Shown: piece by piece, positions 12,368-53,025 of the stretch
Layout: every line of letters starts with the position of its first letter
Position numbering within the stretch: position 1 is the first letter of the stretch
Source of the DNA: Stenotrophomonas sp. SAM-B
GTDB taxonomy: Bacteria > Pseudomonadota > Gammaproteobacteria > Xanthomonadales > Xanthomonadaceae
DNA: 64,000 nt
Reading direction: 5' to 3'
NCBI RefSeq assembly: GCF_013387485.1
Contig: NZ_JABBXB010000001.1
Location: 702,001 to 766,000, forward strand
Notes under the pieces: generated by a model
Told to the model about the DNA's origin: nothing
Databases searched by the model: none
The model's input: the letters and a program-made list of their open reading frames with translations, nothing else
Position numbers and translations under genes: made by a program

Positions 12368-13711
12368 TCAGTAAACACCCTGCGCCAGCATCGCGTCGGC
12401 CACCTTCACGAAACCGGCGATATTGGCGCCGTCCACGTAGTTCACGCTGCCGTCGGCGCGCTTGCCGTGGCGCACGCAGTTGGCGTGGATGTCCTTCATG
12501 ATCCCGTGCAGGCGCTCGTCGACATCGGCGTGATGCCAGGACAGGCGCTGCGCGTTCTGGCTCATTTCCAGCCCCGAGGTGGCCACGCCGCCGGCATTGC
12601 TGGCCTTGCCCGGTGCGTACAGGGTGCCGGACGCGAGGAAGACGTCCACCGCCTCCAGCGTGGCGGGCATGTTGGCGCCTTCGGCCACGCACAGCACACC
12701 GTTGTCGACCAGGGCGCGGGCATCGTCTTCGTCCAGTTCATTCTGGGTGGCGCAGGGCAGGGCGATCTCGGCCGGGATGTGCCAGGGACGCTTGCCCTCC
12801 AGGTACTCGAAGCGTTTGTCGTCGGCCAGCTCGGACAAGCAACCACGGCGCTCGTTGCGCAGTTCCACCACCTCCTGCAGCGCCGCTTCATCGAAGCCAT
12901 CGCGGGCGTACAGCGTGCCGCCGGAATCGGAGAGCGTGAGCACTGTCGCGCCCAGCTCGATGGCCTTGATCGCGGCATGCTGGGCGACGTTGCCGGCGCC
13001 GGAAATCAACACCTTCGCGCCATCGGTATCGCGACGGGCATGGTGCAGCATCTGCTCGACGAAGTAGACGGTGCCGAAGCCGGTCGCTTCCGGACGCATC
13101 AGGCTGCCACCGTAGGAGAGGCCCTTGCCGGTGAACACGCAGGAGGCATCGTTGGTGATCTTCTTCATCATGCCGGTCATGTAGCCGACCTCGCGCGCGC
13201 CGACGCCGATGTCGCCGGCCGGCACGTCAGTATCGGCACCGAGGTGGCGGTGCAGTTCCAGCATCAAGGCCTGGCAGAAGCGCATCACTTCGGCATCGCT
13301 GCGGCCTTTCGGATTGAAATCCGCGCCGCCCTTGCCACCGCCCATCGGCAGAGTCGTCAGCGCGTTCTTCAGGGTCTGCTCGAAGGCAAGGAACTTCAGG
13401 ATTGACTGGTTGACCGACGGATGGAAGCGCATGCCGCCCTTGAACGGGCCTATCGCCGAACTGTGCTGCACGCGCCAGCCGCGATTCACATGGGTCCTGC
13501 CGGCGTCATCAGCCCAGGCCACGCGGAACTGGATCACCCGCTCCGGCTCCACCAGCCGCTCCAGCAGCCCTTGTTCGAAGTAGCGGGGATGACGCTCCAG
13601 GAACGGCCACAGGCTCTGGATCACTTCTTTCACGGCCTGCAGGAATTCCGGCTGATGCGGATCGCGCTGGGCCACGTGGTTGAGAAATTCGGCAGCGGAA
13701 CGAGAGTTCAA
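12368..13711 (-). CDS. gdhA: NADP-type glutamate dehydrogenase
   Basis: Cytoplasmic enzyme making glutamate from 2-oxoglutarate and ammonium. 447 aa, the length of the hexameric bacterial form. Landmarks: GGMRFHPSVN, the catalytic lysine loop TLPMGGGKGGADF, VPAGDIGVGAREVGYM, and the dinucleotide fold around ISGAGNVAQHAA. NADP preference is inferred from the subfamily. Translation starts at TTG (13711) behind AAGGAAAG; no ATG lies suitably nearby. It stands alone on the minus strand directly upstream of nothing else in its transcript; the branched-chain operon ends 108 nt before its start codon. Confidence 0.95.
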   Translation of the reverse strand: MNSRSAAEFLNHVAQRDPHQPEFLQAVKEVIQSLWPFLERHPRYFEQGLLERLVEPERVIQFRVAWADDAGRTHVNRGWRVQHSSAIGPFKGGMRFHPSVNQSILKFLAFEQTLKNALTTLPMGGGKGGADFNPKGRSDAEVMRFCQALMLELHRHLGADTDVPAGDIGVGAREVGYMTGMMKKITNDASCVFTGKGLSYGGSLMRPEATGFGTVYFVEQMLHHARRDTDGAKVLISGAGNVAQHAAIKAIELGATVLTLSDSGGTLYARDGFDEAALQEVVELRNERRGCLSELADDKRFEYLEGKRPWHIPAEIALPCATQNELDEDDARALVDNGVLCVAEGANMPATLEAVDVFLASGTLYAPGKASNAGGVATSGLEMSQNAQRLSWHHADVDERLHGIMKDIHANCVRHGKRADGSVNYVDGANIAGFVKVADAMLAQGVY

Positions 13712-13790
13712 AGGCTTTCCTTGTTGGGGGCCAGCCGCTGGCAGCGACGTGGCCGACGGGACAGGGAGGCCGTGCGGGATGTACAGACAG

Positions 13791-13813
13791 GAACGCGGCC
13801 TCAGGCCGCGTTC
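13791..13813 (-). terminator. hairpin ending the ilv-leu operon
   Basis: GAACGCGGCC/GGCCGCGTTC perfect 10-bp stem 7 nt past the leuB stop codon on the minus strand. The following bases are only weakly T-rich, so termination is likely but not certain. Confidence 0.65.
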
Positions 13814-13819
13814 GTACGA

Positions 13820-14881
13820 TCATTGCAGCTTGGCAAGGACCGCGTCGGTGGCTGCGGCGGTACTCACCGCAAAACCCTTGGCGGCAAGATCGGCAGTGAA
13901 TACGCCGTCATCCAGCACGGCATATACCGCTGCCTCGACCGTAGCAGCCTCTTCGTCCAGCCCCAGTGAATGGCGCAGCAGCATGGCCGCGCTGAAGATG
14001 GTGGCGTAGGGATTGGCGATGCCCTTGCCGGCGATGTCCGGCGCGGAGCCGTGGATAGGCTCGTAGATGCCGACCGCACCCGGTTCGCCCAGCGAGGCCG
14101 AGGGCAGCAGGCCGAGCGAGCCGGCCAGCATCGAGGCTTCGTCGGTGAGGATGTCGCCGAACATGTTCTCGGTCACGATCACGTCGTACTCGCGCGGCTT
14201 GGCCAGCAGGTGCATGGCCATCGAATCGACCAGCTGGTGCTCCAGCGCGATCTCCGGGAATTCTTCGCGGCCGATCCGCGCGGCGACGTCGCGCCACAGG
14301 CGCGAGGTTTCCAGCACGTTGGCCTTGTCCACCGAGGTGACCTTGCCGCGTCGGGTCTGTGCCAGCCGGAACGCGGTGCGCATGACGCGCTCGATCTCGC
14401 CCACGCTGTAGCTGCACAGGTCGCTGGCGGTGTCGGCGGTGCGGGTCTTCTCACCGAAATAGATGCCGCCGGTCAGTTCCCGCACGACGACGAAGTCCAC
14501 GCCTTCCAGCAGTTCGGCCTTGATCGGCGAGGCGCCGAGCGCGGCCGCGTGCGTGCGTACCGGACGCAGGTTGGCGTACAGCCCCAGCGCCTTGCGGATC
14601 GCCAGCAGGCCTTGTTCCGGCCGGACCTTGGCGTTGGGATCGGACCACTTCGGCCCGCCCACCGCACCGAGCAGGATGGCGTCCGCCTTGCGGCAGGCCT
14701 CCAGCGTGGTGGCCGGCAGCGGCTCGCCGTGGCGATCGATGGCGATGCCACCGATGTCGTGTTCCTGGAACCCGAAGGTGTGCCCGAAACGGGTGGCGAC
14801 GGCCTCCAGCACCGCCACGGCGGCGGCGGCGACTTCCGGACCGATGCCGTCACCCGGCAATACGACAATCTCAGCGTGCAT
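13820..14881 (-). CDS. leuB: 3-isopropylmalate dehydrogenase
   Basis: NAD-dependent oxidative decarboxylation of 3-isopropylmalate in leucine synthesis. 353 aa from MHAEIVVLPGDGIGPEV. The start at 14881 fixes the conserved N-terminus, and the coding region overlaps the end of leuD by 11 nt, so translation is probably coupled. Substrate and metal residues lie in VDSMAMHLLAKP and MFGDILTDEASMLAGSLG; GSAPDIAGKGIANP is the cofactor-side signature. It is the last gene of the eight-gene branched-chain operon. Confidence 0.95.
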   Translation of the reverse strand: MHAEIVVLPGDGIGPEVAAAAVAVLEAVATRFGHTFGFQEHDIGGIAIDRHGEPLPATTLEACRKADAILLGAVGGPKWSDPNAKVRPEQGLLAIRKALGLYANLRPVRTHAAALGASPIKAELLEGVDFVVVRELTGGIYFGEKTRTADTASDLCSYSVGEIERVMRTAFRLAQTRRGKVTSVDKANVLETSRLWRDVAARIGREEFPEIALEHQLVDSMAMHLLAKPREYDVIVTENMFGDILTDEASMLAGSLGLLPSASLGEPGAVGIYEPIHGSAPDIAGKGIANPYATIFSAAMLLRHSLGLDEEAATVEAAVYAVLDDGVFTADLAAKGFAVSTAAATDAVLAKLQ

Positions 14882-15449
14882 GTTCACTCTCGTAACGTTC
14901 AATGTCTGGGGTACGGCCCAACAGATACCCCAATTGGTCCACGCCTTCCAGCAGGCAGGTCTGCGAGAAGCCATCCAGCGGGAAGACATACACGCGCCCA
15001 TCGGGCGTGCGCAGTTCGCGCGCGGCCACATCGATGGTCAGTGCGTCATCCGGGCGCTGCATCAGCGTCTGCACATCGGCTTCGTCCAGCACGATCGGCA
15101 GCAGGCCGTTCTTCAGCGAATTGCCGCGGAAGATGTCGGCGATCTCGCTGCTGACGATGGCGCGCAGGCCCAGGTCGGTCAGTGCCCACGGTGCATGCTC
15201 ACGCGACGAGCCGCAGCCGAAGTTGCGCCCGGCCAGCAGGATGCTGCGGCCGGCGTTGTGCGGCTGGTTGAAGGCGAACGCCGGGTTCGGCACGCCCTCG
15301 CTCTGCCAGCGCCAATCATTGAAGGCGTACTTGCCCAGGCCGACGCGTTCGGTGGTGGACAGAAAGCGCGCCGGAATGATCTGGTCGGTATCGATGTTGG
15401 TCTCGCGCAGCACCACGCTGGTCGAGGTCAGGGTACGGAAGCCGCTCAT
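14871..15449 (-). CDS. leuD: 3-isopropylmalate dehydratase, small subunit
   Basis: Swivelling subunit of the isopropylmalate isomerase; works with LeuC. 192 aa, beginning [31 protein letters not shown] and GRNFGCGSSREHAPWAL are the family signatures. Its ATG overlaps the leuC stop codon (TGATG) and its own end overlaps leuB by 11 nt, giving a tightly coupled leuC-leuD-leuB block. The same frame reads on upstream inside leuC, but that part is out of frame with LeuC and is not coding. Confidence 0.95.
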   Translation of the reverse strand: MSGFRTLTSTSVVLRETNIDTDQIIPARFLSTTERVGLGKYAFNDWRWQSEGVPNPAFAFNQPHNAGRSILLAGRNFGCGSSREHAPWALTDLGLRAIVSSEIADIFRGNSLKNGLLPIVLDEADVQTLMQRPDDALTIDVAARELRTPDGRVYVFPLDGFSQTCLLEGVDQLGYLLGRTPDIERYESEHAR

Positions 15450-16870
15450 CAGGCCACCTCCAGCGTGGCATACAGTTCGCGTGGGTCGGCCACGCGGCCG
15501 TTCACCGCGGCCCAGGCGGCCGTCATCGGCGAGGCCAGCAGGGTGCGCGAACCGGGCCCTTGGCGGCCTTCGAAATTGCGGTTGCTGGTGCTGACCGCCA
15601 GTTGGCCCGGCGCGACCAGATCGCCGTTCATGGCGATGCACATCGAGCAGCCCGGCTCGCGCCATTCGGCACCGGCCGCGCGCACGATCACATCGATGCC
15701 TTCGGCTTCGGCCTGGCGCTTGACGATTTCCGAGCCCGGCACCACCAGCATGCGCACGCTCGGGGCGACGCGGCGGCCCTGCAGCACCTGCGCCACTTCG
15801 CGCATGTCGCTCAGGCGGCCGTTGGTGCAGGAGCCGACGAAGACCACATCCACCGGCGTGCCGGCCAGGGTCTGCCCGGCGTGGAAGTGCATGTAGTCCA
15901 GGCCCTTCTGCGCGGCAGCGTCGTTGGCGGCCGGAATCGGCTGGTCCACGGCGATGGCGGTACCGGGGTGGGTGCCCCAGGTCAGGGTCGGGCGGATGTC
16001 GGCGGCCTCGATGTGGACCTCCACGTCGAAGCGCGCACCGGCATCGCTGCGCAGCTGCGACCACGCGTTGACGGCGGCATCGAAGTCGGCGCCCTTGGGG
16101 CCACGCGGGGTGGCGGCCACCCAGTCGAAGGTGATCTGGTCGGGGGCGACCATGCCGGCACGCGCGCCAGCTTCGATGGACATGTTGCACAACGTCATGC
16201 GCTGCTCCATGTCCATCGCTTCGATCGCGCTGCCGCGGAACTCCAGCACATGACCGGTGCCGCCGTTGACGCCGATCACTCCGATGATGTGCAGCACCAC
16301 ATCCTTGGCACCGACGCCCTGGGCCAGCACGCCATCGACCGTGATGGCCATGGTCCTGGCTTTGCGCTGCAGCAGGCACTGGGTGGCCAGCACATGGCCG
16401 ACCTCGCTGGTGCCGATACCAAAGGCCAGTGCGCCGAACGCCCCGTGCGTGGAGGTGTGGCTGTCGCCGCAGACGATGGTCATGCCCGGCTGGGTGAAGC
16501 CCTGCTCGGGGGCGATCACGTGCACGATGCCGCGGCTGGCCGACTGCAGGTCGAACAGTTCGATGCCATGTTCCGCGCAGTTGGCGGCCAGCATCGCCAC
16601 CTGTGCTTCGGAGGCGGCGCTGGCGTAGGGCAGCTTGCCGTCGGCACCGGCCGGCAGGGTCGGGGTGGAGTGGTCCATCGTCGCCTTGGTCCGGTCCGGC
16701 CGGCGCGGGGAGAGGCCGCGCTCGCGCAGTTCGGTGAAGGCCTGCGGGGAGGTCACTTCATGGATCAGGTGCAGGTCGATGTACAGCACGGCGGGCGCGC
16801 TGTCGGTCTCGGGAACGACGACGTGGGCATCCCACAGTTTGTCGTACAGGGTGCGGGGAGCTGGGGTCAT
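15449..16870 (-). CDS. leuC: 3-isopropylmalate dehydratase, large subunit
   Basis: Aconitase-family [4Fe-4S] subunit that interconverts 2- and 3-isopropylmalate. 473 aa from [21 protein letters not shown] 16870 is chosen because AAGG lies 8 nt upstream and homologues start near TLYDKLW; an in-frame ATG at 16903, 6 nt after the leuA stop, would add 11 residues. Cluster cysteines are in [14 protein letters not shown] and in [23 protein letters not shown] is the substrate signature. Overlaps leuD by one base. Confidence 0.94.
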
Positions 16871-16909
16871 GGACTGGCCTTGCTGCGGTTCGGGGTGCTT
16901 CATGGGTGC

Positions 16910-18457
16910 TCAGGCCGCGGCGGTGGCCGCGGGCTGTTCGGTCGTCGCGTTGCGCTGGCGCAGCAGGCGGTTGGCCACTTCCAGCCACGCCAGCGCGGAG
17001 GCTTCGATGATGTCGCGGCTGGTGCCGGTGCCTTCGTACTCCACGCCCTCGTGGCGCACGCTCAGGTTGGCTTCGCCGCGCGCATCGGCGCCGATGCCCA
17101 CACTGTGCACGTGGTAGCTGTCCAGCATCAACTGCACGCCGGTGGCGGCCGACAGTGCACCGAACAACGCATCGACCGGACCATCGCCCTGCGCCGTCTC
17201 GGCGACGCGGTTGCCCTCCGGGTCGGACAGCTCGACCAGGGCATTGGCGCGGCTGCCGACATCGCTGATCGTCATCGAGGCCAGGCGGTAGCCGTTCTGG
17301 GTGGCGCTGCCCTGCATCAGGGTCTGCAGGTCGGCATCGGTCACCACGCGCTGCTGCTCGCACAGCGCCTTGAACTGCTCGAAGACCAGCTTCAGTTCTT
17401 CCTCTTCCAGCCAGAAGCCCAGCGCACGCAGGCGCTGGTCGACCGCGGCGCGGCCACTGTGGCGGCCCAGCACCATCTGCGAGGACTCCCAGCCCACGTC
17501 CTCCGGACGCATGATTTCGTAGGTGCCACGGTGGCGCAGCATGCCGTGCTGGTGGATGCCCGACTCATGCGCGAAGGCGTTGGCGCCGACGATCGCCTTG
17601 TTGCGCTGGACCGGCATGCCGACCAGGCGCTGCAGCAGCTGCGAGGTGCCGACGATGCGCGGCGTATTGATCCGCGTGTCTTCTTCGTAGAAGGCGTTGC
17701 GTACCTTCAGCACCATGGCGATCTCTTCCAGCGAGCAGTTGCCCGCGCGCTCGCCGATGCCGTTGATGGTGCATTCGACCTGGCGCGCGCCGCCTTCGAT
17801 GGCGGCCAGCGAGTTGGCCACGGCCAGGCCCAGATCGTTGTGGCAGTGCGCGCTGAAGATGATGCGGTCGCTGTCCGGCACGCCGGCGATCACGCGCTGG
17901 AACATCCCGCGGATCTCTTCCGGCGTGGTGAAGCCCACGGTATCGGGCAGGTTGATGGTGGTCGCGCCGGCGGCCACGGCCACGCGGGCGACCTCGATCA
18001 GGAAGTCCTCCTCGGTGCGCGTGGCGTCTTCCGCGGAAAACTCGACGTCATCCACATAGCCACGGGCCAGGCTGACGTGCCTGTGCACCGATTCCAGCAC
18101 CTGCTCGCGGCTCATGCGCAGCTTGTGCTCGCGATGCAGCGGGCTGGTCGACAGGAAGACATGCAGGCGCGCGTTCGCCGCGGCCTCCAGCGCCTTGGCC
18201 GAGGTTTCGATGTCGGCGGCCAGGCAGCGCGACAGCACGGCCAAGGTCGGGCGGCGCACTTCGCGGGCGATCATCGCCATGGCTTCGCGGTCCGACTGGG
18301 AGCTGGCCGGGAAGCCGGTTTCCATGACATCCACGCCCAGTTCGTCCAGCGCGCGGGCCATCACCAGCTTCTGCTGCGGGCTCATGCTGCAGCCGGGCGA
18401 TTGCTCGCCATCGCGCAGGGTGGTGTCGAAAATTCTAATTCGGGGGGAGTTGGGCAT
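16910..18457 (-). CDS. leuA: 2-isopropylmalate synthase
   Basis: First committed enzyme of leucine synthesis, condensing acetyl-CoA with 2-ketoisovalerate. 515 aa, the LeuA type-1 length. The catalytic TIM barrel (about 1-270) opens with [14 protein letters not shown] and includes [13 protein letters not shown]; the C-terminal LeuA dimer/allosteric domain (about 390-515) should bind leucine. The ATG lies 2 nt after the ilvA stop codon and any Shine-Dalgarno sits inside ilvA, so expression looks translationally coupled. A GTG two codons upstream is an alternative start. Control probably combines attenuation at the operon head and leucine feedback, the latter from family knowledge. Confidence 0.95.
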
Positions 18458-18459
18458 GG

Positions 18460-19719
18460 TCACCAGGAGGTCTCCTCGACAGCAATGTCGGATGGAATGG
18501 CAGAGGTAGGAATCGAAACGGATATCGGGGGTGTCGCGAGCACGGTGGGTAGGGGCGGGCGTGTTCGCTCGCTGGCGCGGCGGCGCGGTTTGCGCGGGGG
18601 ACGGGGGCGGATGTCGGCCAGCAGCTGGGCCAGTACCAGTGCATCGATGTTGCCGCCGGAGACCACCGCGCACTTGCGTTTGCCGGCCACGCGGCGGCCG
18701 GCGGCCAGCGCCAGCGCACCAGCCCCTTCGGCGATCACGTGTTCTTCCAGCGCCAGCCGCACCAGGGTTTCGCGCAGCTCGGCTTCACGCACGATCACCA
18801 CGTCGTCCAGCAGCGCACTGCAGAGCCGGCGGGTCAGGAAACCGGGGATCTTTACCTTGACGCCGTCGGCCAGGGTGGCGACCGGGGCGATCTCGCGTAC
18901 GTCGCCGCGCATGGCGCGGGCCATCGAATCGACGCCCTCGACCTGCGCACCGACGATACGCACGCCCTGCGATTTCAGCGCCAGCGCCACGCCGGACGCC
19001 AATCCACCGCCGCCGATCGGCACGATCACCACGTCCGGTGCGTGCGGCGCCAGCTCGATGCCCAGGGTGCCCTGGCCGGCGATCACGTCGGGGTCGTCGA
19101 AGGCGGACAGGAAGCGGTAGCCATGCTGGTCGGCCAGCGCGCGGGCGAAGGCGTAAGCCTCGTCGTAGCTCTCCCCGTGCTGGCGGACGGTGGCGCCCCA
19201 ATGCGCCACGCCGGCGATCTTGGTGGCCGGCGCGCCGTGCGGCATCACCGTGATCGCGGGGATGTTCAAGCGGTAGGCGGCCCAGGCCACGCCCTGGGCG
19301 TGGTTGCCGGCCGAGGCACAGATGACCGGGCGGTCATCGCCGCGTTCACGGCCGGCCAGCAGGGCGTTCAGTGCGCCGCGTACCTTGTAGGAGCCGGTGC
19401 GCTGCAGGTTCTCCAGCTTCAGCCACACGCCGAAGCGCTCGGCGTAATGCAGCGGCGTGGGCGGCAGGAAGCGGCGCAGCCGTGCCTGCGCGGCCAGCAC
19501 ATCGGCGACGCTTACGTCGCCTACATCCGGTTCCTGCGGGGTACGGCTAGCCGGCATCATGCACCCGGCCATGGTGATCGTCGCGGAGCGACGCGCGCTG
19601 CCACGGCGCACGGTGCGACGTCGTGCCTCCTGCAGCGCGGTGCGACGTTGTGCATCCTGCAGCGCGGTGCGACGTTGTGCATCCTGCACGCGCACCATTT
19701 GCACATCCATGTGCTGCAA
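18460..19719 (-). CDS. ilvA: threonine dehydratase with a repeat-encoded N-terminal extension
   Basis: PLP enzyme that turns threonine into 2-ketobutyrate for isoleucine. The core starts near [22 protein letters not shown]; the PLP lysine is in [10 protein letters not shown], the glycine loop is [10 protein letters not shown], and [10 protein letters not shown] lies near the end. A Pro/Arg-rich tail follows, with no full ACT regulatory domain, so it is the short form; ACT protein IlvM is encoded just upstream. The start is uncertain: GGAGGTG lies 7 nt before TTG 19719, favouring a product with about 55 extra residues, three of whose segments repeat (D/E-A-Q/R-RRTAL/V). Without that extension the enzyme would start near 19575-19560. 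Confidence 0.85.
19612..19692. repeat. three tandem 27-bp repeats at the ilvA 5' end
   Basis: Units 19612-19638, 19639-19665 and 19666-19692. The last two differ at only their final bases; the first has two changes. 27 bp is nine codons, so copy number can change without shifting the ilvA frame. Confidence 0.85.
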
Positions 19720-19761
19720 GAAGACACCTCCGTACCGGCACCGATGCAACGGTGCGGGCGT

Positions 19762-20016
19762 TCATGCGGATACTCCGGGTTCCAGCGCGCTGATGCGCAC
19801 CGAAACACAGTCGTAGATCTTCTCGATCTGGCGGCGCAGCGTTTCCGGCGGACGCGTGCTGTCCACCACCAGCTGCAGGTGCCAGCGGCCGTCATCGGCG
19901 GCATTGGGCGCACCGGCGATCGCGCGCGGCGCGAAGCCGCGGCGTTCGGCCATGCCGATCACGCGCAGCAGCGCGCCTTCGGCGGGGGTCAGCACCAGGT
20001 CAAGCCGGTATTGCAT
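19762..20016 (-). CDS. ilvM: acetolactate synthase regulatory (small) subunit, ACT domain
   Basis: 84 aa ACT-domain protein (MQYRLDLVLTPAEGALLRVIG) of the IlvM type, which binds the large subunit IlvG and tunes activity and valine feedback in related enzymes. ATG 20016 has GGAG 8 nt upstream, inside ilvG, whose end it overlaps by 17 nt, so the two subunits are probably made in a coupled way. The ACT fold spans nearly the whole protein. The next gene, ilvA, starts about 40 nt after its stop. Confidence 0.9.
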   Translation of the reverse strand: MQYRLDLVLTPAEGALLRVIGMAERRGFAPRAIAGAPNAADDGRWHLQLVVDSTRPPETLRRQIEKIYDCVSVRISALEPGVSA

Positions 20017-21733
20017 TGGGGAACTCCTGGGACTGATGGGCGGGGTTGCTTTCCAGCATCGTGCTGTTGGCGTTGTTGGGCGGCACCAGCGGCCACACGT
20101 TGGCACGCGCATCGATGGCGACATGCAGCAGCGCCGGGCCGGGCTGGGCCAGCATCGCGGCCAGGCCACCTTCGACATCGTCACGTGCTTCGATGCGCGT
20201 GGCCGGAATGCCGAACACCTGGGCCAGCGCGGCGAAGTCCGGGTTGTCGGACAGATCGATCTCGCTGTAGCGCTCGGCGAAGAACAGCTCCTGCCACTGG
20301 CGGACCATGCCCAGCGAGCTGTTGTCCAGCAGCACGATCTTCACCGGCAGGCGGCAGCGGGCGATGGTGACCAGCTCCTGCACGTTCATCATGAAACTGC
20401 CGTCACCGGAGACCAGCACCACGGTGCGGTCGGGGCAGGCGAACTGCGCGCCCATCGCCGCCGGCAGGCCAAAGCCCATGGTGCCCAGCGCGCCGCTGGT
20501 CAGGTGGTTGCGCGGGTGGTTGAAGCGGCAATGCTGGGCGACCCACATCTGATGCTGGCCGACATCGCAGGCGATGATCGCGTCGCTCGGCGCCAGCTCG
20601 CTCAGGCGCTTCAGCAGCGCCGGGGCGTAGATGTGCTTGCCCGGTGCGTCGTAGCGCGGGGCGAAGCGTTCACGATGGCCCTGGCAGCGCTGGCGCCAGG
20701 CGTCCTGCGCGGCCGGTACCGTGGCGGCCGCCGTCAGCGCACGCAATGCGGTGCCGACGTTGCCGGGCACCGCGATGTCGGCGGTGCGCAGTTTGGAGAT
20801 CTCGTAGGCATCGGCATCGATGTGCACGACGCGCGCAAACGGGGCGAACTCGTTCAACTTTCCGGTGGCGCGGTCATCGAACCGCGCGCCGACCACGACC
20901 AGCAGATCGCTTTCCTGCACGGCCATGTTGGCCGCGCGGGTGCCGTGCATGCCCAGCATGCCCAGGTAATGCGGATGCTGCGGCGGCAGCGCACCCAGCC
21001 CGCGCAGGGTCAGCACGGTCGGAATACGGGTCGCCTCGACGAAGGCACGGAAGTCCTCCACCGCATCGCCCAGCGCCACCCCACCACCGGCATAGATCAC
21101 CGGCTTCTCTGCCTCGGCGATCGCCGCGATGGTCTGCGCGATGGCCTCGTCCTGCGGTGCAGGCGGTGCCACCACGGTGGAGGGCACGTGGTCGGGCAGG
21201 TGCGACGCATCGGCCACCTGCACGTCCTTGGGCAGATCGATCAGCACCGGGCCGGGACGGCCCTCGCGGGCGATCCGGAACGCATCGGCAACCACCTGCG
21301 GCAGGTCTTCGACGCGGCGCACCAGCCAGCTGTGCTTGACGATCGGCAGGGTCAGCCCGAACACGTCCAGTTCCTGGAACGCGTCGGTGCCCAGCAGCGG
21401 GGTGGCGACCTGGCCGGTGATGCAGACCATCGGCACCGAATCCAGCATCGCGTCGGCGATGCCGGTGACCAGGTTGGAGGCGCCCGGGCCGGAAGTGGCG
21501 ACGCAGACGCCGACCCGGCCACTGGCGCGGGCGAAGCCGTTGGCGGCCAGGGCCGCGCCCTGCTCGTGGCGGACCAGGATGTGCTTCAGCCCGGAATCCA
21601 CCAGGGCGTCATAGAACGGCATGATGGTGCCGCCCGGATAGCCGAACAGCGTATGCACGCCCTCGGCTTCCAGGGCCTGCGTCAACCAGCGTGCGCCGTT
21701 GCGGGGCGCGGTGCTGTGGGCGGAGGTATTCAT
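20000..21733 (-). CDS. ilvG: acetolactate synthase, large (catalytic) subunit
   Basis: TPP- and FAD-dependent enzyme starting valine/leucine and isoleucine synthesis. 577 aa. LFGYPGGTIMPFYDAL and the catalytic Glu in VRHEQGAALAANGFAR lie in the N-terminal pyrimidine domain, the FAD domain has VVVGARFDDRATGKL, and the C-terminal TPP motif runs from SGDGSFMMNVQEL to DNSSLG. AAGG stands 8 nt before the ATG. It follows ilvC by 40 nt and overlaps ilvM. Confidence 0.95.
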   Translation of the reverse strand: MNTSAHSTAPRNGARWLTQALEAEGVHTLFGYPGGTIMPFYDALVDSGLKHILVRHEQGAALAANGFARASGRVGVCVATSGPGASNLVTGIADAMLDSVPMVCITGQVATPLLGTDAFQELDVFGLTLPIVKHSWLVRRVEDLPQVVADAFRIAREGRPGPVLIDLPKDVQVADASHLPDHVPSTVVAPPAPQDEAIAQTIAAIAEAEKPVIYAGGGVALGDAVEDFRAFVEATRIPTVLTLRGLGALPPQHPHYLGMLGMHGTRAANMAVQESDLLVVVGARFDDRATGKLNEFAPFARVVHIDADAYEISKLRTADIAVPGNVGTALRALTAAATVPAAQDAWRQRCQGHRERFAPRYDAPGKHIYAPALLKRLSELAPSDAIIACDVGQHQMWVAQHCRFNHPRNHLTSGALGTMGFGLPAAMGAQFACPDRTVVLVSGDGSFMMNVQELVTIARCRLPVKIVLLDNSSLGMVRQWQELFFAERYSEIDLSDNPDFAALAQVFGIPATRIEARDDVEGGLAAMLAQPGPALLHVAIDARANVWPLVPPNNANSTMLESNPAHQSQEFPNAIPA

Positions 21734-21773
21734 GCGGTGACCTTTACGAAAGCGGGTGGGGGAGCCGCGCGTT

Positions 21774-22748
21774 TTACGCGGCTTGACTTTGCAACCAGAC
21801 CATCTTGGCGCGCAGTTCCTTGCCTACCTTCTCGATCGGGTGCTCCAGGTCGGCCTGCTTGAATTTGTTGTAGTTCGGCAGGCCCGCTTCGTATTCGGCG
21901 ACCCAGTTCTTGGTGAAGGTGCCGTTCTGGATATCGGTCAGCACGTCCTTCATGCGCGCCTTGGTGCCGGCATCGATCACGCGCGGGCCACTGACGTAGT
22001 CGCCGTACTGCGCGGTCTCGGAGATGAATTCCAGCATGCGGGTGATGCCGCCTTCGTAGAACAGGTCCACGATCAGCTTCAGTTCGTGCAGCACTTCGTA
22101 GTAAGCGATCTCCGGCTGGTAGCCGGCTTCGACCAGGGTTTCGAAACCGGCCTGCACCAGGGCCGAGGCACCGCCGCACAGCACCGCCTGTTCGCCGAAC
22201 AGATCGGTTTCGGTCTCTTCCTTGAAGGTGGTCTGGATCAGGTTGGCGCGGGCGCCACCCAGGCCACCGGCGTAGGCGAGGGCGAACTCGGCGGCCTTGC
22301 CGCTCTTGTCCTGGTAGACCGCCCAGATGCACGGCACGCCGCGGCCGATCTCGTACTCGCGACGGACCAGCGCACCCGGGCCCTTCGGCGCGACCAGCAC
22401 CACGTCCAGATCCTCGCGCGGTTTGATCATGTCGAAATGCACGTTCAGGCCATGCGCGAACAGCAGCACCGCCCCCTGTTTCATGTTCGGCGCAAGCACG
22501 TCTTCGTAGAGCTTCTTCTGCACCATGTCCGGGGTCAGCACGGCGACCAGGTCGGCGTCCTTGACCGCTTCGGCCGGGGCTTTGACGGTGAAGCCGTCGG
22601 CCTGGGCCTTGACCTCGGTCGGACCGCCCGGGCGCAGCCCGACGACGACATCGAAGCCGGATTCACGCAGATTCAGCGCGTGCGCGCGGCCCTGGCTGCC
22701 GTAGCCGACAACAGCGATCTTGATCTGGGGCAGGTCGTTGGTGCTCAT
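21774..22748 (-). CDS. ilvC: ketol-acid reductoisomerase, class I
   Basis: Mg2+/NADPH enzyme converting acetolactates to dihydroxy acids. 324 aa, class I. Cofactor fold [15 protein letters not shown] at the N-terminus; the active-site metal ligands fall in the knotted C-terminal domain around [12 protein letters not shown] and [17 protein letters not shown] lies 9 nt before the ATG. It is the first structural gene after the attenuator, 212 nt downstream of the terminator hairpin on the minus strand, so it and all seven downstream genes would be governed by that switch. Confidence 0.95.
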
Positions 22749-22960
22749 GGGGGAGGTCCTTTGGAGGCAAGAAAAAAAGAGGGCCGACGGTCAGCGACGC
22801 GTCGGCCCATCAGGGGAAGGGGGGGCGCCGGCCTGGCCGCGACCACACGCCAACGCACCCGCCGTGGGGGCGGTGGGCATCGGCTGGCTCGCGGTGGGCT
22901 GGCGGGTCATGGTGGAAGGCAGCTCGGAGGGGAGGATGGAAATCGAAGGGTTCTGAAACG

Positions 22961-22994
22961 AAAAAACCCGCACCTGGTCGGGTGCGGGTTTTGA
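22961..22994 (-). terminator. attenuator terminator (segments 3:4) of the ilv-leu operon
   Basis: AACCCGCACC (22981-22990 read on minus) and GGTGCGGGTT (22965-22974) form a perfect 10-bp stem with a six-base loop followed by U6. It lies between the leader peptide and ilvC, so full transcription of the operon needs it to be melted. Confidence 0.92.
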
Positions 22995-23014
22995 TGGATA
23001 CCTGGCAGTCTTGC

Positions 23015-23140
23015 TTACACGCCGGTCCGTCCCGCACCTGTTGGTTGGGTAATAAGTACGAGGACGAGAAGCGAATGGACGGAGGCCGCGCCGTGGTCGG
23101 CGTGCTCGGTGGATTCGCGGGTGGCTGTGCGCTGCAACAT
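23015..23140 (-). CDS. ilvL: ilv operon leader peptide (41 aa) with LLVLVLI control run
   Basis: Short coding region with seven consecutive branched-chain residues at codons 24-30 (CTT CTC GTC CTC GTA CTT ATT, 23051-23071), followed 8 nt past its TAA by the attenuator. Ribosome stalling on these codons when Leu, Val or Ile-tRNA is scarce would leave segment 2 (GGTGCGGG, 23031-23038) free to pair with CCCGCACC of the terminator arm (22981-22988). When translation proceeds, segment 2 is masked, and CACGCCG upstream (23098-23104) can also pair with it (23018-23024). All pairings are visible in the sequence; function follows from classical ilv attenuation. No Shine-Dalgarno is seen before the ATG. 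Confidence 0.9.
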   Translation of the reverse strand: MLQRTATRESTEHADHGAASVHSLLVLVLITQPTGAGRTGV

Positions 23141-23148
23141 GAGATCGA

Positions 23149-23177
23149 GAAAACCACACGGGTTTTGGCGGTGTCAA
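23149..23177 (-). promoter_or_regulatory. candidate promoter of the ilv-leu operon
   Basis: A consensus -35 TTGACA (23172-23177 on minus) lies 17-18 nt before a poor -10 (GTTTTC or TTTTCT, about 23148-23154). Transcription would then start within a few bases of the leader ATG at 23140, giving a nearly leaderless message, which fits the absence of a ribosome binding site. Confidence 0.55.
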
Positions 23178-23407
23178 CCCTGGGAACGCAATTTCCATCA
23201 GTTTCGCCTGCATCCACTGCAAGCCCCCGCCCTGCAAGGATGGTTGCGGTTGAAAGCGTTCGGGTGAACCGGAATTCAGCATTTTGGGGCGCCGTTCTGC
23301 GCGGATTTGAGGCCTCGTTACGCCGGCACATGACCATGGTGGGATGTCATCTGGGGGCATCTGCCGCCACCATCGGGGGGCTGCTACCACCCATCAGGAA
23401 CCACCCC

Positions 23408-25391: not shown

Positions 25392-25508
25392 GTAGAGCCA
25401 CGCCATGCGTGGCTGCTCTTCTCGTGCAATGATCCGACGTAGAGCCACGCCATGCGTGGCTGCTCTTCTCGTGCAATGATCCGACGTAGAGCCACGCCAT
25501 GCGTGGCT
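25392..25508. repeat. three SMAG-type elements in a 47-bp tandem array
   Basis: GTAG followed by the palindrome AGCCACGCCATGCGTGGCT begins at 25392, 25439 and 25486. The first two 47-bp periods are identical; the third diverges after the palindrome. GTAG-headed palindromes are the hallmark of the S. maltophilia SMAG family. Confidence 0.85.
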
Positions 25509-25614
25509 GCTTTTCCTCAACCAGGATCCAAGGCGTCAGATGCACGCTGCGACACCGAGCTTCGCCCGGCGGCTCTCCCCAACACCACCTTGAAACCGTG
25601 AGCGGGACGGGGCG

Positions 25615-52814: not shown

Positions 52815-53025
52815 GTAGTGCCGGCCGCTGGCCGGCTCCACGCGGACCGTCAGATTCCTGATGAAACCGGCCACTGGCCGGCTCCACGGAGTCGTGGCGG
52901 ACACCGCGATGCCGGCCAGCGGCCGGCACTACCCGAGCGCCGGACAGCCCCAAGGTGCCGGCCAGCGGCCGGCAGTACCCGAGCGCCGGACAGCCCCAAG
53001 GTACCGGCCAGCGGCCGGCACCACC
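52815..53025. repeat. array of five SMAG-type palindromes
   Basis: GCCGGCC-(G/A)-CTGGCCGGC units at about 52815-52836, 52867-52881, 52911-52933, 52957-52977 and 53001-53025, in mixed orientation. The last three are separated by repeated 25-bp GAGCGCCGGACAGCCCCAAG spacers. It lies directly downstream of pfp, which ends 9 nt away, and may serve as its 3' end. Confidence 0.85.

Follow-up and report, generated by a model that had tools for sequence, protein, structure and literature searches.

The window analysed here, a 64,000-nt stretch of DNA from a genome of the Stenotrophomonas maltophilia complex (its IlvC is 99% identical to that of locus L002, NZ_NIVS01000009), carries eight genes of isoleucine, valine and leucine synthesis in a row on the minus strand. 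The first is ilvC, encoding ketol-acid reductoisomerase (21774-22748; NF004017), followed by ilvG for the large subunit of acetolactate synthase (20000-21733; NF006524) and ilvM for its small subunit (queried frame 19762-20010; NF008362). Next come ilvA for threonine dehydratase (open frame 18460-19749, with the true start inside; NF006455, matched over residues 66-429), leuA for 2-isopropylmalate synthase (open frame 16910-18673; NF002086), leuC (15449-16903; TIGR00170), leuD (queried frame 14871-15500, matched from residue 18, near 15449; TIGR00171) and leuB (open frame 13820-15031; TIGR00169). The gene order ilvC-G-M-A-leuA-C-D-B given in the initial annotation agrees with these NCBIfam models, all of which score above their cut-offs with the exception of IlvM, at 32.4 bits against a cut-off of 68. 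A consensus scan of 13600-23400 detected no terminator-like site on the minus strand inside the operon. The operon does contain three 27-bp tandem repeats at 19611-19693, in the stretch that separates ilvM from the ilvA domain, and in many related loci such as L116, L118-L122, L125-L127 and L131-L156, though not in all of these, some 900-1100 bp that are unmatched by operon proteins separate ilvM from ilvA. Repeats also occur elsewhere in the window, as 2.6 copies of a 47-bp unit with an inverted repeat (GCCACGCCATGCGTGGC) in a REP-like array at 25392-25515, and as a 46-bp unit that contains the palindrome GCCGGCCAGCGGCCGGC and is present in 2.5 copies at 52910-53025.

Upstream of ilvC, and on the same strand, lies a leader open reading frame of 41 codons (23140-23015), with the translation MLQRTATRESTEHADHGAASVHSLLVLVLITQPTGAGRTGV and the C-terminal end SLLVLVLITQPTGAGRTGV immediately before the stop codon; it is probably leaderless. 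The run of control codons for LLVLVLI that had been annotated in this frame is present, reading CTT CTC GTC CTC GTA CTT ATT at 23071-23051, and positions 23067-23064 and 23062-23056 within it double as a putative segment 1. Segment 2 (GGTGCGGGACGG, 23038-23027) is marked by conserved GGA and CGA codons, while segment 3 (22988-22981) is at once the 5' arm of the terminator and the predicted partner in the antiterminator. Segment 4 and the U6 tract complete the attenuator terminator (22974-22961), which was detected in a terminator scan and has compensatory pairs in relatives. Its stem at 22992-22963 and six T residues at 22966-22961 are as initially annotated, and 212 nt separate the T tract from ilvC. 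At gathering thresholds no Rfam family matches the leader region, where Leu_leader (RF00512) reaches 20.0 bits against 50 and Thr_leader (RF00506) 20.5 bits against 55. Between 22500 and 23600 there is no T-box match up to an E-value of 10, and the only riboswitch match there is Xanthine, at 14.1 bits against 36 and inside ilvC. Elsewhere in the window, a TPP riboswitch (RF00059, 27633-27734, plus strand) and the sRNA sX11 (RF02230, 55194-55052, minus strand) score above gathering.

Related leaders were collected in three sets. A total of 144 ilvC loci were examined (24 out of 80, plus 120 more, some of them representing the same strain twice), of which 47 carry a leader before ilvC that matches a peptide pattern; together with the window these make up set A, with 48 rows and 45 distinct leaders. 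A chance match to the pattern at L161 was left out by eye, and the pattern revealed no leader in the remaining 97 loci. A model of the run, segment 2 and the terminator, R1, was built from 40 leaders and matches 124 of 149 family genomes at E <= 0.01, some of these matches being other elements. The 40 R1 matches away from ilvC that constitute set B are followed by ilvD in every case. When the search was extended to the order, 95 of 151 genomes matched at E <= 0.001, and 30 leaders picked from the best R1 scorers in six other families form set C, in which the next gene is leuA (17), ilvD (12) or ilvG (1). A set A3, which also contained matches on the opposite strand, was left out. In an initial scan of loci of the Lysobacter-like and Rhodanobacter-like types, the only leaders detected close to ilvC were the divergent ones at L191 and L201, and in loci of these types read later the switch precedes ilvD or leuA. 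L191 and L201, which are ilvC loci of other families, show TTGACA, an ATG 30 or 29 nt further on, a divergent hydrophobic peptide rich in branched-chain residues, and a terminator. Leaders in sets A and B encode 35-62 amino acids. The design is common to 115 distinct leaders from seven families (45, 40 and 30 in sets A, B and C), although the agreement in run, codons and arms is partly by construction, because the leaders were found by the peptide pattern (A) or by R1 (B and C).

A codon bias has been detected at the control codons. Set A was selected on its peptides, without regard to codons; in it, leucine in the seven codons at -8 to -2 is encoded by 73 CTC, 55 CTT, one TTG and no CTG, and isoleucine by ATT in 47 of 47 cases. 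Over the 8-codon windows of the 115 leaders, CTG accounts for 8 of 408 leucine codons, ATC for 7 of 166 isoleucine codons and GTA for 156 of 261 valine codons; the corresponding shares in the ilvC genes of the set A loci are 85% CTG, 98% ATC and 4% GTA. Genes for the tRNAs Leu-GAG, Val-UAC and Val-GAC are present, and this avoidance of common synonyms fits a sensing of amino acid supply through scarcer isoacceptors. Segment 2 carries GGA in 42 and CGA in 35 of the 45 set A leaders, and each of these codons makes up 0.8% of its amino acid's codons in ilvC, a usage that fits a constraint from RNA pairing. The initial annotation had named loss of the codon run, or a lack of covariation, in relatives as grounds for giving up its reading; the 115 leaders have Leu, Val or Ile at 6-8 of 8 codons, and cognate pairing arms outperform permuted ones, as detailed below.

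The 180-nt leader has a predicted folding energy of -68.5 kcal/mol, which is better than that of all 200 dinucleotide shuffles (z -3.7). Both the minimum-energy and the centroid fold pair the control codons with segment 2 (TCGT.CTCGTAC against GTGCGGGACGG), and in both codons 2-6 pair with the stop region. The latter helix, P0, has its 5' arm at 23137-23123 and its 3' arm, across the stop codon, at 23023-23011; the 5' arm is placed by the fold and by compensatory changes in relatives, the 3' arm by the paired cells over 44 leaders. The two mutually exclusive pairings of segment 3 that had been proposed also stand as far as complementarity is concerned, since GGTGCGGG (23038-23031) and CCCGCACC (22988-22981) are fully complementary and CCCGCACC also pairs with 22974-22967. 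Once the upstream part and segment 4 are removed, segment 2 is predicted to pair with segment 3 at -22.2 kcal/mol.

Conservation of these helices was assessed on an alignment of 44 leaders, namely the 45 distinct ones of set A without L008, which is too divergent. The three P0 helices have 84.7, 88.1 and 68.2% of cells paired, the 1:2 pairing 94.4% and the terminator 94.2%. For the whole structure, changes on both sides of a pair occur in 32 cells, and this count, the covariation score and the percentage paired are each reached by none of 500 shuffles; 34 of 500 shuffles are at least as high in the number of pairs with a double change, and 272 of 500 in further pair types. The 2:3 helix is 96.9% paired among the family leaders, and its pair counts in the family display no excess covariation, the helix being too invariant for counting to show any. 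Duplex energies were also compared with those of arms permuted among leaders, a procedure that ignores kinship: over the 115 leaders, cognate 2:3 duplexes average -17.4 against -15.5 kcal/mol across sets and cognate terminators -20.2 against -17.6 kcal/mol, with none of 1000 permutations as good in either case. The 1:2 signal in the same leaders is weak, with 37 of 1000 permutations as good and a shuffled arm at -16.4 against -17.9. For the 45 leaders of set A, the cognate 2:3 and 3:4 energies are equalled in none of 2000 permutations, whereas the p value is 0.093 for 1:2 and 0.012 for the P0 pairing of codons with the stop region. The 1:2 pairing is the weakest of the pairings. A hairpin with at least three T in the next 7 nt is present in all 115 leaders, the tails of the attenuator terminator being short in some Xanthomonas-type rows. 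The permutation results for 2:3 and 3:4 are those expected of an antiterminator that excludes the terminator and is kept by covariation.

Ahead of the leader frame, a -35 element, TTGACA, is located at 23177-23172 on the minus strand, and this hexamer is exact in 110 of the 115 distinct leaders. When every TTGACA was counted against every in-frame ATG upstream of the run, an ATG 29-33 nt after TTGACA was found in 45/45 leaders of set A, 38/40 of set B and 27/30 of set C, and neither the promoter nor the ATG is contained in the peptide pattern or in R1. Four of the five leaders without an exact TTGACA are one base off, while L362, with at best 3/6 matches, has no clear -35 element. Out-of-frame ATGs have no peak at 29-33 nt and cluster at 13-14 nt, inside the promoter (18 places in set A, 11 in set B). 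In set A, between 15 and 29 codons separate the ATG from the run. In the window, the -10 region (TTTCTC, 23152-23147, placed by eye) is weak; variants in some other families read TACGGT, TAGGGT or TACTGT. A TAnnnT motif ending 4-9 nt before the ATG is found in 21/30 leaders of set C, 5/45 of set A and 1/40 of set B, compared with 10 of 460 control windows. The duplex with the anti-Shine-Dalgarno sequence before the leader averages -1.3, -1.4 and -2.6 kcal/mol in sets A, B and C, the set A value standing against -4.7 kcal/mol at ilvC, and it reaches -4 kcal/mol or better in 12 of the 115 leaders. Most leaders are without a Shine-Dalgarno site, as expected of leaderless leader peptides. With a spacing of 29-33 nt, transcription would be expected to start at the ATG itself, and the spacing, the missing Shine-Dalgarno site and the variable distance from ATG to run together point to a leaderless leader peptide.

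A conventional attenuator, in which the leader frame follows a normal 5' untranslated region, would place the promoter further upstream and the translation start internally, TTGACA being something else. The -10 element is indeed poor in most of the leaders proximal to ilvC and ilvD, a simple promoter scan of 13600-23400 found no sigma-70 site, and TTGACA-N29-33-ATG is not enriched in this genome as a whole (23 sites against 20 for the reversed pattern, with 19 against 17 at a spacing of 39-43 nt). This arrangement is nevertheless improbable in view of the fixed distance from TTGACA to an in-frame ATG, the general lack of anti-Shine-Dalgarno pairing in leaders when compared with ilvC, and the excess of TAnnnT shortly before the ATG in other families. 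Still less credible is the exact three-segment scheme of the initial annotation, in which CACGCCG (23104-23098) serves as segment 1 with CGGCGTG (23024-23018) as its partner. The two heptamers complement each other in the window, yet this pairing is absent from the minimum-energy and centroid folds. L002, L003 and L091 contain both strings as well, and these three and the window are the only 4 of 45 distinct family leaders that have CACGCCG before the run; moreover, the CGGCGTG arm can pair with codons 2-8 instead, with compensatory changes.

Control might also take place in two steps, with a further hairpin before ilvC as a second regulated intrinsic terminator, for example through translation of a small open reading frame. 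This hairpin, T2 (22808-22772, minus strand), consists of a stem at 22808-22781 followed by TCTTTTTTT. Nearly half of the set A rows (23/48) have a long spacer to ilvC, and in 20 of these 23 a T2-like hairpin, at or below -12 kcal/mol and with at least five T in the next 10 nt, lies 28-50 nt before the gene, with stem sequences that differ between clades. The frame in question, ORF2 (22910-22791), ends inside T2, and a stop in or beside T2 is seen in the window and in many among the rows listed. Against these observations, 1 of 15 shuffles of the window's own T2 stretch did as well, T2 went undetected by the automatic test in rows with a short spacer, and Xanthomonas-type rows have weak tails. 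ORF2 was rejected as a second leader peptide, since no excess of third-position changes was seen in the 10 close pairs counted; in L005, L100 and L102 it is cut short or missing altogether, and it probably encodes no conserved peptide. T2 could instead protect an mRNA end or act as a leaky terminator, and two-step control is a possible but rather unlikely arrangement.

The preferred reading, to which a probability of about 0.85 is assigned, is ribosome-mediated attenuation of transcription, with a leader peptide whose first codon lies at the RNA 5' end or no more than one or two bases from it. The frame, its codons, the possible pairings, their conservation and the spacing from promoter to ATG are read from sequence, and the start site, stalling and readthrough are inferred. 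Transcription would begin at the leader AUG, onto which a ribosome would load without a Shine-Dalgarno site. With charged Leu-, Val- and Ile-tRNA in ample supply, the ribosome would reach the stop codon and cover segment 2, so that 3:4 could form and transcription would stop at the U6 tract. If any of the three tRNAs were short, stalling on the CTT, CTC, GTC, GTA or ATT codons would melt segment 1, and the freed segment 2 could pair with segment 3, allowing RNA polymerase to continue into ilvC-ilvG-ilvM-ilvA-leuACDB. Without a ribosome, codons 2-6 would pair with the stop region and the control codons with segment 2, favouring termination. The core of the initial proposal, attenuation of one ilv-leu operon by several amino acids, fits the comparative data, while its assignment of segment 1 is unsupported. 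It had also made no mention of a promoter from which transcription would start at the ATG, the bias towards rare codons, the helix between the 5' end and the stop region, the second hairpin or the position of ilvD as first gene in many relatives.

A similar arrangement has been observed before another gene. Among 20 secondary R1 matches, 12 precede an asnB-like start (L306, L309-L312, L314-L317, L319, L322 and L325), and the other eight (L307, L308, L313, L318, L320, L321, L323 and L324) looked like plain terminators and were left out by eye. L306 belongs to the same genome as the window (G000 contig 5, 47418-47520, minus strand), where the gene encodes asparagine synthase B (NF006949, 754 bits). 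The peptides of the 12 leaders, with start codons chosen by hand, are rich in asparagine (78 of 369 residues), their design of segment 2 and terminator resembles that of the ilv switch, and TAnnGT is found 6-7 nt before the ATG in 11 of the 12. On these grounds the asnB leader is probably leaderless and is a candidate attenuator that would sense asparagine. The analysis of the ilv switch thereby points to an attenuator of a specificity for which no paper, on asnB or on asparagine sensing, was found in the open-access literature.

In enterobacteria, the attenuators of ilvGMEDA, ilvBN and leuABCD combine leader peptides with multiple branched-chain amino acid codons and the logic of 1:2, 2:3 and 3:4 pairing; a 5' untranslated region containing a Shine-Dalgarno site precedes the leader frame, and their ilv and leu switches are separate. 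No description of an ilv attenuator in Xanthomonas or Stenotrophomonas was found in the open-access literature, a search outside which most subscription papers fall, and a comparative study of proteobacterial attenuators from 2004 may have listed Xanthomonas. Leaderless leader peptides have precedents. The ilvBNC attenuator of Corynebacterium glutamicum has a 15-aa leader peptide with branched-chain residues (MTIIRLVVVTARRLP), a three-gene operon, transcription that begins one nucleotide away from the leader's start codon, and a hairpin that shields initiation (PMC11857589). The two systems are alike in the kind of leader and the choice between terminator and antiterminator, and the 5'-proximal start and shielding hairpin are predicted for the present leader too; they differ in the longer family leaders (35-62 aa), the joining of ilv with leu genes and the control codons that can form segment 1 here. 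For trpL of Sinorhizobium meliloti (rnTrpL/peTrpL), a tryptophan system with a 14-aa leader, it is reported that the attenuator RNA starts with the ATG of the leader frame, which is inferred for the present case, and that the released RNA and peptide act in trans (PMC7298713). The ilvB1NC leader of Mycobacterium tuberculosis similarly has LVVI regulatory codons in an upstream frame and a terminator opposed to an antiterminator, and differs in its unusually long leader of 166 nt and in preceding ilvB1NC only (PMC13236596). The mechanism itself is known; no account of the present variant turned up in the open-access literature searched.

A broader reading can be put forward tentatively, at somewhat less than even odds, in which amino acid attenuation throughout the order has been rebuilt around a leaderless RNA. 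Loading at the 5' end would then be a first checkpoint, owing to the predicted pairing of the leader's initial codons with its stop region, and the design would have been reused for asparagine before asnB and supplemented with T2 in part of the group. If the proposed attenuator is correct, it would place eight genes for isoleucine, valine and leucine synthesis under one switch in Stenotrophomonas, and the design would have persisted through a reordering of the operon behind it, with ilvC, ilvD, leuA or ilvG as first gene. It would also offer a natural system for measuring ribosome loading on a 5' AUG, and would indicate that tight coupling of transcription and translation can rest on leaderless translation in this proteobacterial order.
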